Below are positions 2,548 to 29,572 of a stretch of 42,632 nt of DNA, one piece after another (within the stretch, counting starts at the first letter, position 1; the number at the start of each line of letters is the position of its first letter). A model generated the notes under the pieces. It saw nothing but the letters and a program-made list of their open reading frames with translations. It was not told the origin of the DNA and did no database searches. The position numbers and the translations under genes are program-made. Source of the DNA: a virus; IMG/VR virus record IMGVR_UViG_3300012920_000084, positions 1-42,632 of that record. One strand, written 5' to 3'.

Positions 2548-3450
2548 TCACGTTTTAATCAAATGTTGTGCAGTTAATTGTACATCATCAATATCAACGG
2601 TGTTAGGTACTTCTAACCAATCCTCATCTTCATCAATGTTCAGCTCACTATATTTAGATAATGCATTATAGGTATTATCTACTTGAACTGGACGGTGCTG
2701 ACCTAAAATCTCAGCAGTAATAAAATCATGAAACGTTTGTGTATCACTCAACCATGTTCTAGGATGAGATGTTTTGAACGCATGTGTTACATGATTATAA
2801 AATGTCCAAGCATTATCTTGATCACAGTTGTAATCATAAGATGGCTTGTTCATTTCATTTCTACAACATGTCATCTGCGTATTATCAAGTAGCTCTTCAT
2901 TAAAATAAAGTCTACCTAATAGTGCAGCCTGTTGTTCTTTTGTTAATGGTGTATTTCTTAATGCATCTCTGTCATCTATAATACGCTTGTATATCTTCTC
3001 AGCATTCTTAATCTGATTAGATATTTGCATATGTATATCATGATCAGCTGCACCGGTATGTTTTCTTTTGAAATTCATAAGATCACCGGCCACCATACCA
3101 TTGTAACATACTCCTACATATCCTCCAATAGCACATTGGAATCTAATAGTTTTATCATAAGAGTTTGTCCAGGCAAACATCATCCCTAATTCTGTTTCAT
3201 TTAGAACTTTAGGATCTGTTATAGCGCTGTTTGTCTTAGGTTTAATGTGATATATACCCTGTGCAACTTTTGCATCTAGATTAGCTCTGTATAGCTCTCT
3301 TGTTATAGCAAAACCACTATCTTCTAGTAGTTTTGTAGTTCTGTCCATCACTTGTTTATGTGATACTACAGTGTAAGATGGTCCCCATTTTGGAAGCGGG
3401 GCAGCTTCTAAGTAACTACGTGTTACTTCTGTTGGTCTTTTATGTCCCAT
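2548..3450 (-). CDS. DUF932-family phage/plasmid-like protein
   Basis: 300 residues. The central region fits the DUF932 (phage/plasmid-like TIGR03299) pattern: a polar segment ending in TNSYDKTIRFQCAIGGYVGV followed by CYNGMVAGD (about residues 95-125), then a helical region and an acidic C-terminus. DUF932 proteins are common in phages and plasmids. Their biochemical role is not established, though an association with DNA metabolism is often suspected. The gene is monocistronic: a consensus-type promoter with an overlapping palindrome lies directly upstream (3468-3499) and a hairpin region follows. The separate control is notable because most neighbours are in long operons. Confidence 0.75.
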   Translation of the reverse strand: MGHKRPTEVTRSYLEAAPLPKWGPSYTVVSHKQVMDRTTKLLEDSGFAITRELYRANLDAKVAQGIYHIKPKTNSAITDPKVLNETELGMMFAWTNSYDKTIRFQCAIGGYVGVCYNGMVAGDLMNFKRKHTGAADHDIHMQISNQIKNAEKIYKRIIDDRDALRNTPLTKEQQAALLGRLYFNEELLDNTQMTCCRNEMNKPSYDYNCDQDNAWTFYNHVTHAFKTSHPRTWLSDTQTFHDFITAEILGQHRPVQVDNTYNALSKYSELNIDEDEDWLEVPNTVDIDDVQLTAQHLIKT

Positions 3451-7204: not shown

Positions 7205-7786
7205 TTATTTGTTCAAAGATAACAAATTATCATTACCAAACAAATCTATTTCAAAAGGAATACTACAATACAATGTTTCTTTATATATGTCTGGTACACT
7301 ACATACCTCAAATATATTTTCCATCACCTCTTTGTCTACTCCAAGTCTTTCTGCATACTGTTGGTGTAGCTCTTCATCTGGTGTTAGAAAACCTTTTACA
7401 TAAGAAGATATTCTACCTTGACTACCAAAGAAATCTAATATAGCTATTTTATTATTGACTGTGAATTTAGAATATTTACCTGTTGCAAACATTTCAAAGT
7501 CATGTGCATACATCTCAAAGTCAAAAATATATAATTGTTCCTTTCCAAGATTAACATGCTCAAACAAAAGCTCATGATTTTTTAAGAAAGCATCTTCAAA
7601 CTCTTTAAATGAGTCATCATACTCTGATTTATACAGACACATAAATTTATTATCTGTCTCTTCAAATACAGTATCCCAACAGATATACGTTTCTATAGGA
7701 ACATAAGTAATCCCCTTCCTCAATCTAAGTAGTGGATAGAGGAATACTTTGCTCTTTTGAAAGTAATCTGTGTAGACGCTTCCCAT
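7205..7786 (-). CDS. Hypothetical protein (193 aa)
   Basis: Not recognised. An acidic, aromatic-rich globular protein, beginning with a beta-rich segment (about 1-50) and continuing with helices that include ELLFEHVNLGKEQLYIFDFE and a run with repeated FE/YA. No metal-binding or nucleotide motif is visible. It lies directly between the RecE-like nuclease gene (1-base gap) and the 137-residue gene, so it is almost certainly co-expressed with them. Confidence 0.6.
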   Translation of the reverse strand: MGSVYTDYFQKSKVFLYPLLRLRKGITYVPIETYICWDTVFEETDNKFMCLYKSEYDDSFKEFEDAFLKNHELLFEHVNLGKEQLYIFDFEMYAHDFEMFATGKYSKFTVNNKIAILDFFGSQGRISSYVKGFLTPDEELHQQYAERLGVDKEVMENIFEVCSVPDIYKETLYCSIPFEIDLFGNDNLLSLNK

Positions 7787-23530: not shown

Positions 23531-23543
23531 ATAAATTTCTTTG

Positions 23544-23617
23544 TACCCGCACAAGGACTTGAACCTTGAACCTACAGCTTAGAAGGCTGTTGCTCTATCC
23601 AATTGAGCTATACGGGC
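23544..23617 (-). tRNA. tRNA-Arg (anticodon UCU)
   Basis: 74 bases on the - strand. Acceptor stem GCCCGTA/TGCGGGT with discriminator A; D arm GCTC...GAGC; anticodon stem ACAGC/GCTGT with loop CTTCTAA (anticodon TCT); T arm CAAGG/CCTTG with TTCAAGT loop. No CCA is encoded. It reads AGA, the commonest arginine codon in this AT-rich genome, and so may support late protein synthesis. It lies between the HNH and helicase genes. Confidence 0.93.
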
Positions 23618-25577: not shown

Positions 25578-25690
25578 AATAATTTTGTCTGACTCAAACA
25601 AAAATAATAATTATTACAGTTCATATATGATTAAACACAATGTTTATTAGTCTTATCTCAAAACTTTTTACTAATATATAGCTATCAATA

Positions 25691-28489: not shown

Positions 28490-28666
28490 TTATCTACGCC
28501 ATGGTCTTGCTGTGTACTTTTGCTTTTTAGCATTCCAATATGGTTTCTTGTTCCATTTCTTCTTCATCTTCTGCGTTTTACACATTCTTGTGCTGCTACA
28601 TGACGTTACGGTTGCTCCTATGCCTACAAAGAGTAGACAAAAGAATAAATATTTAAGTGTTTTCAT
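28490..28666 (-). CDS. Small basic lipoprotein (58 aa)
   Basis: ATG at 28666 overlapping the upstream TGA (ATGA); TAA at 28490-28492. Signal peptide of about 22 residues with T-S-C23 lipobox (VTSCSST), then a strongly basic, Lys/Arg/Trp-rich mature part (KKKWNKKPYW...). A periplasmic or envelope-attached peptide, perhaps membrane- or peptidoglycan-binding. No family recognised. Confidence 0.65.
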   Translation of the reverse strand: MKTLKYLFFCLLFVGIGATVTSCSSTRMCKTQKMKKKWNKKPYWNAKKQKYTARPWRR

Positions 28667-28950
28667 AAGTTATAGGATTGTGCATATGTCAAGAAGCCTA
28701 ATCTATCTTGATCATGAACGATGATTGCATCATTCTCCTCTGCAATATGCCTAAGACTTACGCTAGTTAATAATTCATTTTCTAACTCAGCAATTCTTGG
28801 TGACTCAAGTCTATCAAGTGTTACTGGTTTGTAATCACCGCTTGGATCTATGAACCATGCAGTGTTGGCTAACTCATTGACGAATACTTTCACGCCAATA
28901 GTAGTGCCTAGTTGAGCAAATACATTGCTATTAATAAATTCAATTCTCAT
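28663..28950 (-). CDS. Hypothetical protein (95 aa)
   Basis: Not recognised. A beta-rich first half (MRIEFINSNVFAQLGTTIGV, then NTAWFIDPSGDYKPVT) and a helical second half (ELENELLTSVSLRHIAEEND). It is the first gene after the 334-base intergenic region and is joined to the lipoprotein by an ATGA overlap. Cytoplasmic. Function unknown. Confidence 0.6.
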   Translation of the reverse strand: MRIEFINSNVFAQLGTTIGVKVFVNELANTAWFIDPSGDYKPVTLDRLESPRIAELENELLTSVSLRHIAEENDAIIVHDQDRLGFLTYAQSYNL

Positions 28951-29259
28951 TGTGTTAAGGTTTAAGTGATTAATGTTATTGCGGGTAATATGCCTATCTT
29001 CCTATATATAGAAGAGAGTAATACATAAGCTAACCCATAACTTGTAGTCTTATTGGTATTGTTGATCCACATTCCTCTAGTTATGGTAGTGTTAGCTATG
29101 TTTATATATTACGGTGCTAAAGTTTTGTTTTAGTGTTACAAAGTGGGTTTTTGTGGGTATTTTTACCTCACACACACTGTGCAACACACATAAATAATTA
29201 ATTTACGTGCAACAAAAGTAATTTTTGCAAGAATTTGCCTGTAACATTGGAACAAGTGT
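28951..29259. promoter_or_regulatory. Intergenic region with long stem-loop and dyad
   Basis: No credible gene. AGCTAAC (29028-29034) pairs with GTTAGCT (29091-29097), and CCATAACT (29035-29042) with AGTTATGG (29079-29086), giving a 15-bp stem with a four-base bulge and a 36-base loop. A dyad around CTATATATAG (29002-29011) and CA/TG-rich repeats (about 29165-29192) lie nearby, and TACTTTTG (29220-29213, - strand) resembles a -7 box. It could be the leader of the - operon starting at 28950 or an origin. Unproven. Confidence 0.45.
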
Positions 29260-29280
29260 AAAAGGGAACCGTAGTTCCCC
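29260..29280 (-). terminator. Intrinsic terminator after the first early gene
   Basis: On the - strand, GGGAAC-TACG-GTTCCC followed by four T (complement of 29260-29279). It directly follows the stop of the 95-aa gene at 29285, so that gene is a single-gene transcript or leader with partial read-through. Confidence 0.75.
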
Positions 29281-29284
29281 TATA

Positions 29285-29572
29285 TTACTCTGCCCAGTAC
29301 AGGTTATCAAAGGCTTGATTTGTTTGCTGATTGATGACTTTCTTTTCAGTCAATGTTAATGGTAGTTCATCTCCTACCTTTAATTCAGCCTTTAATGCCA
29401 TTCCGTCTTCAGCGCTTATAGCCGTGAAGCCAAATTTGACATCTGACACACCTTGCTGTCTGATTTCCATAGTTCTACTACCTATCTTCTTAGATTGTGT
29501 AGTCAATTCAGATAGTGGTTTGTCTGTTGAGATGAGAGATTTGTTACTCTCTGAGATTTTGTAAAAATACAT
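29285..29572 (-). CDS. Hypothetical leader-position early protein (95 aa)
   Basis: Not recognised. Starts MYFYKISESNKSLISTDKPL; beta-rich, with VKFGFTAISAEDGMALKAEL and ELPLTLTEKKVINQQTNQAF. It is the first gene leftward from the divergent region, on its own transcript ended by a terminator, the usual place for an immediate-early or very abundant protein. A hairpin (29606-29622) lies 33 bases before its ATG. Confidence 0.65.
   Translation of the reverse strand: MYFYKISESNKSLISTDKPLSELTTQSKKIGSRTMEIRQQGVSDVKFGFTAISAEDGMALKAELKVGDELPLTLTEKKVINQQTNQAFDNLYWAE

Follow-up and report, generated by a model that had tools for sequence, protein, structure and literature searches.

The 334-base gap between two minus-strand open reading frames in this virus record raises the question of what a long stem-loop does where genes are absent. 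The window, by which we mean the whole stretch analysed, is a 42,632-base virus record (IMGVR_UViG_3300012920_000084), and the original prediction had proposed this region as a possible leader RNA or replication origin. The size of the gap was confirmed from the flanking ORFs, and the predicted geometry, a 15-bp two-part stem with a four-base bulge and a 36-base loop, proved exact: AGCTAAC plus CCATAACT (29028-29042) pair over 7+8 bp with AGTTATGG plus TAGT plus GTTAGCT (29079-29097), where TAGT, in plus-strand order, is the bulge in the 3' arm and the two arms enclose the loop. The dyad CTATATATAG was located at 29002-29011, and the CA-rich run, which reads as ACC repeats on the minus strand, keeps its position among relatives (Table 1).

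Table 1. Features in and around the intergenic region, in window coordinates.
Feature	Position	Strand	Basis
Downstream gene, 95 aa, no assigned function	28663..28950	-	ORF list
3' conserved blocks: TCTTCTATATATAGGAAG region (the dyad of the original prediction) and ATATTACCCGCAATA tail	28975..29020	-	Sequence conservation; hairpin unproven
Conserved non-coding element A, promoter/leader-like, houses the hairpin, ~220 bp	28977..29206	-	blastn, 42/80 related loci (several of the 80 end short of the element)
Whole two-part stem	29028..29097	-	Outer 7 bp 29028-29034/29091-29097, inner 8 bp 29035-29042/29079-29086
Type-B RNA hairpin, 8-bp stem and 36-nt conserved loop, core AATG..TCAACAATACCAATAAG	29034..29087	-	Model R1, covariation
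Box1 TATAAACATAGCTAAC, consensus ATAWAYATAGCTAAC, promoter-like AT-rich block	29091..29106	-	Nearly invariant in alignments
CA-rich block, three repeats, 10-11 nt spacing, consensus TACCCAC / TACCACC / TACCAC, upstream of box1	29133..29160	-	Alignments
Possible terminator behind the upstream gene, a stem-loop with a short T run	29259..29284	-	Homologues L004 and L010 pass scan
Upstream gene, 95 aa, no assigned function	29285..29572	-	ORF list

Judged from its large terminase and portal, which fit the PHROG terminase and portal families, the carrier of element A is a crAss-like phage, a group that is very abundant. By tblastn the window terminase matched 137 phage records, the best of them crAss-like at identities of 27% or less, and relatives of the window in IMG/VR reach sizes of about 110-118 kb. 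Genes to the left of ~29.6 kb lie on the minus strand and include DnaB-like helicase, primase-like, DnaA C-terminal-domain and HTH_36 proteins, and those to the right lie mostly on the plus strand, with terminase, portal and an amidase endolysin. The window also encodes a tRNA-Arg(TCT) at 23543-23617 (-), and a Met-Leu-Arg tRNA cluster is present in five relatives (L054, L030, L046, L013 and L015).

The window loop corresponds to a portable motif, here motif B, whose exact 24-mer occurs in 21 IMG/VR stretches and whose 22-nt degenerate core occurs in 46. The 24-mer had no match in GTDB contigs, and the bare core pattern was uninformative as a genome search. An 18-mer search added ten loci, eight of which lacked the hairpin and were dropped, leaving L192 and L196. 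The type-B alignment contains 23 distinct sequences, the window among them, and its rows were retrieved by the loop core and not by the stem. In this alignment 96.2% of the cells of the 8-bp stem are paired and double changes occur in six of the eight pairs; for the stem together with the inner helix, covariation reached 0.449 versus 0.233 ± 0.020 in shuffled alignments (0 of 500 as high), with slid controls at or below 0.154. The stem sequence varies between sites yet still pairs, as in the divergent stems of L090 (AAGATTCC/GGAATCTT), L206 and L094, whereas the loop core is almost invariant. The pairing, whose absence the original prediction had named, together with even replication coverage, as grounds for abandoning the idea, is kept by compensatory changes.

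These alignments also fix the strand. U-G and G-U pairs are frequent in the type-B stem when it is read on the window minus strand and would be A-C mismatches on the opposite one, which assigns the RNA to the minus strand. This one-stranded G-U pairing, together with the compensatory changes, marks motif B as a structured RNA and not a DNA element. In folding, the minus strand of 28990-29110 gave z = -3.3 (0 of 200 shuffles equally stable) and the plus strand only -1.2 (25 of 200), and the full 334 nt of the minus strand gave z = -4.5 (0 of 100). The outer arm pairs through U-G in L010, L046 and L162 (by eye). Within the type-B loop the fold is uncertain, because one pair of the inner helix (GNGG/CYAC) is broken in 10 of the 23 sequences. 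Model R1, whose source alignment contains the window sequence itself, scored 75.9 bits (E 3.4e-21) on the minus strand and 10.1 bits on the plus strand of the same place; elsewhere in the window it found nothing convincing, the next best match having 12.0 bits (E 0.5). A hairpin at the dyad was suggested by single folds and rejected, as the RNAalifold consensus of 43 sequences has no base pair there; the dyad belongs to a conserved sequence block, and covariation does not support a hairpin in it.

Additional sequences were noticed around motif B. In L088 (~2560-2640, -), L199 (~7230-7312, +) and L212 (~3229-3320, +) it is adjoined by an apparently structured non-coding stretch of ~90 nt with closing arms AAATTAGG ... 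CCTATTT (by eye), which is not a tRNA by ARAGORN and is not in Rfam. In L218 (G016) several hundred bases past element A (~740-1350) look non-coding and hairpin-rich by eye, with motif B inside, and L049, L091, L101, L111 and L130 share a recurrent ATGGACCACTAACAATACCAGTAAT with some likeness to the motif B core.

In the window the hairpin sits inside element A, which on the minus strand reads, 5' to 3', three CA-rich repeats, box1 and a variable slot, followed by the block TCTCTTCCTCTATAGGA and then the tail ATAGTACCCGCAATA; the GCTAAC of box1 doubles as the 5' outer arm of the hairpin. The box1-to-tail span is 104 nt in 29 distinct sequences, a class picked for sharing that length, and 89 to 155 nt in other classes. 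Consensus folding of the first element A alignment gave zero pairs, and a covarying fold of the 104-nt class was rejected after its 13 predicted pairs proved mostly invariant, with double changes in only two. The blocks of element A are conserved as sequence, with no convincing covarying fold in the 104-nt class or in the dyad region. Box1 was also considered as a repeated promoter and discarded: among 14 long contigs, four (G008, G009, G010 and G011) have exact copies at two places and G002 has one at a single place, the remaining contigs have mismatched copies only, and a reversed-pattern control also matches in 13 of the 14. A further sequence resembling box1, ATATATATAGCTAAC or close to it, lies in the opposite direction just beyond the HTH_36 stop codon of the window (25673-25687, +) and at L051 ~1811 (+) and L062 ~3036 (+), and AGCTAA..TTAGCT self-complementarity is seen in several relatives. 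In L052, L053, L062, L064, L125 and L141 the CA-rich repeats shift from ACCAC-type to AAGCC-type at nearly unchanged spacing, as if a binding protein had altered its specificity.

The order of phased repeats, AT-rich box1 and hairpin resembles a promoter, and on this rests the serious rival to an autonomous small RNA, namely a cis-acting leader in which element A would be an early promoter and its 5' hairpin would control stability, translation or antitermination of the downstream early or replication operon. We regard it as a possibility of some weight, if one that falls clearly short of even. Of 29 sampled leaders, in which L044 is counted twice, 11 have terminator-like stems upstream compared with 4.1% of base shuffles, which fits a new transcript beginning within element A. 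In the window, L010, L043, L046 and L062, an ATG stands 26 nt beyond the ..GCAATA tail. On the other side, the window's own copy of the terminator-like stem-loop fails both the leader scan and the consensus scan, and the gene behind the window leader is not conserved, with relatives in just two other contigs. A riboswitch, or a leader tied to a single class of gene, was rejected, given that narrow distribution of the downstream gene and the varying sites of the motif.

The same blocks can be read as the replication origin of the original prediction, with the CA-rich repeats as iterons, box1 as an unwinding element and the hairpin as a cruciform or primer RNA. Iteron-like spacing beside an AT-rich block near the strand switch would suit such a role. 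So would two gene products of the window, the DnaA C-terminal-domain protein and the replication-initiator-like HTH_36 protein, and the single site that element A occupies in each of the 16 of 28 long records where blastn places it. The GC skew does not bear this reading out. In one relative, the 116-kb contig G008, minus-strand ORFs have a skew of -0.140 and -0.135 on either side of the element and plus-strand ORFs to the right have +0.171; the near-equal values indicate that skew mirrors the coding strand, without a strand-independent inversion. One-mismatch DnaA boxes number 19 in the whole window versus 17.2 expected by chance, and their mean across 44 element sequences is 0.27 per sequence compared with 0.10 after shuffling, slightly above chance but with no conserved site. 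The G-U covariation, moreover, indicates an RNA and not a DNA cruciform, and we consider an origin improbable.

A longer form of the RNA, type D, was first found through a weak R1 match behind a stop codon in L016 (23.4 bits). It is laid out as stem P1, the strand AUGAGUCAAGCAAUACC, hairpin P2, short hairpin P3, the strand GAUAAGCA and stem P1', and its 20-mer occurs in 44 IMG/VR stretches. Across 14 sequences 95% of the cells are paired and covariation is 0.241 versus 0.109 ± 0.016 in shuffled alignments (0 of 500), while a measure of further pair types was matched by 67 of 500 shuffles, and seven of the nine P2 pairs are invariant. P3 carries insertions in L033, L236 and L245; L033, L236 and L241 were omitted from alignment A6 for a P3 insertion or an altered 3' side, and L250, L252-L255 and L258 were left unused as the type-D context is absent by eye. 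L251 and L257 represent a variant in which P2 and P3 differ in sequence but still pair by eye; model R2 gives the two 53 and 46 bits. In GTDB contigs a type-D 19-mer was found in three stretches, two of them without type-D context by eye. The third, L261 (WLWP01000004.1, 114,697 bases), lies in a MAG labelled Pseudomonadales and carries the type D RNA and a phage-type endolysin; on account of that endolysin it is probably a misbinned crAss-like phage.

Types B and D have a common core and share some genomic slots, and B reads as this core without the two extra hairpins, P2 and P3, of D. Model R1 detects the D copies of G005 (E 3.5e-4), G029 (E 9e-5) and G030 (E 4e-4), and G023 carries an intermediate that scores 29.6 bits with R1 and 38.2 bits with R2.

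Of 28 long records, 74-118 kb in length, 9 carry strong B (60 bits or more), 11 strong D (80 bits or more), none both and 8 neither, a split that is not an unbiased sample since the records were picked for length or for carrying the motif, include some near-duplicates and are all possibly fragments. G023 has two B-like copies, the second being the weaker intermediate. In many loci the RNA lies behind box1, as a cis leader would: both forms are found 36-41 nt past it inside element A, D also 135-136 nt past it, directly after the tail, and B also 236-734 nt past it. Both forms also stand behind a stop codon, with the core at 21-24 nt. Against a cis leader, box1 (at most one mismatch) is missing from the 4 kb upstream on the same strand in 12 of the 13 records with a located copy (ten with strong B, and the D of G028, G030 and G031, searched whole), although a diverged upstream element A could escape this search. 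The exception, G023, has a box1 that belongs to its own element, the one with the intermediate copy; box1 matches in G033-G035 overlap the motif's own stem, and G021 ends 591 bases upstream. These whole-record searches supersede an exact box1 and tail search of 34 loci, which found neither within 4 kb in 25, because only 8 of those 25 extend 4 kb upstream.

The RNA also seems to be exchanged independently of its surroundings. L010 and L051 carry the same 36-nt loop as the window in an element that is only 75-79% identical, and L004-L007 have another hairpin in the slot though their endolysin is 82% identical, as is that of L010. Varying positions and loops identical across diverged genomes could also be expected of a mobile hairpin, or of a DNA repeat that binds protein (REP/MITE-like or transposon-end-like), that has entered several sites. 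We judge this very improbable, as each of the 28 long records that has any strong copy has a single one, and the stems are rebuilt by paired change with frequent U-G pairs that the other strand would read as mismatches. The mutual exclusivity of the forms, their varied sites and the loop exchange fit an exchangeable one-per-genome RNA unit better than an element that controls one particular gene, and the hairpin accordingly looks like a portable RNA unit rather than the switch of a single gene.

Taken together, the window hairpin is a copy of a family of small structured RNAs of related marine phages, usually single per genome and outside Rfam 15. As a leader RNA, the original prediction thus holds in part: the RNA lies on the strand of the downstream gene, within a promoter/leader-like element, but "leader" is not its whole identity since it is also found away from element A. 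Our leading account, held tentatively and at somewhat less than even probability, is that the hairpin belongs to a new family of autonomous, protein-binding phage RNAs derived from early or replication transcripts. Transcription would start from box1, and the RNA would be produced as a segment of such transcripts, forming the 5' hairpin of the leader in the window, and possibly excised from them. The conserved loop or junction may bind a protein, candidates being a phage RNA polymerase, a factor in replication or translation, or a host protein involved in defence or RNA decay, and the RNA might act in trans; an action that need not depend on the adjacent gene would explain why position and neighbours vary while the core is constant. 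Against autonomy count the 8 of 28 long records with neither form and the promoter-proximal site in element A, which is what a cis leader predicts. More doubtful, in our estimate, is the fuller proposal of an autonomous one-per-genome small RNA whose forms B and D are interchangeable, which would shift from one docking site to another within the early/replication block and act in trans on a protein of the host or the phage, for instance by inhibiting RNA polymerase or defence or by serving as a packaging or replication cofactor. A covarying RNA outside Rfam, nearly always single-copy and with an exchangeable slot beside a promoter-like element, is a defined experimental target and offers a route to ask how crAss-like phages control early expression.

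Known families and systems allow a comparison. Of the 4227 families in Rfam 15, tRNA alone scored at or above its gathering threshold in the window and in the 28 relatives' loci covered, the weak matches in the region scoring 14.6 bits against a threshold of 60 and 10.4 against 95; the RNA resembles Rfam families in being a conserved structured RNA with covarying stems but has no family assignment. In 50,697 phage records, blastn with the window region, element A and motif B gave only short, weak matches. Within titles and abstract openings of a literature that left most subscription journals outside, no conserved non-coding RNA is described for crAss-like phages. A search of two large G008 ORFs against Pfam and PHROGs recognised no RNA polymerase.

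Three phage systems come close by description. The put antiterminator RNAs of phage HK022 are structured RNAs just downstream of early promoters and share the place near a promoter, whereas the present RNA often lies behind stop codons without a promoter-like element. The pRNA of phi29 and similar phage small RNAs are single structured RNAs per genome, among early genes, and the likeness lies in the one RNA per genome, while size and location differ. The virion RNA polymerase of phage N4 uses hairpin promoters. An article on Crassvirales terms their transcription broadly similar to that of N4, with early genes driven by a virion RNA polymerase, and states the replication mode as unknown (PMC10136315). 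With the N4 hairpins the present motif shares a place in the early region of phages whose group has a virion RNA polymerase, and a hairpin beside a promoter-like block, and it differs from them in its 36-nt loop, its RNA-type covariation and its many copies far from box1.
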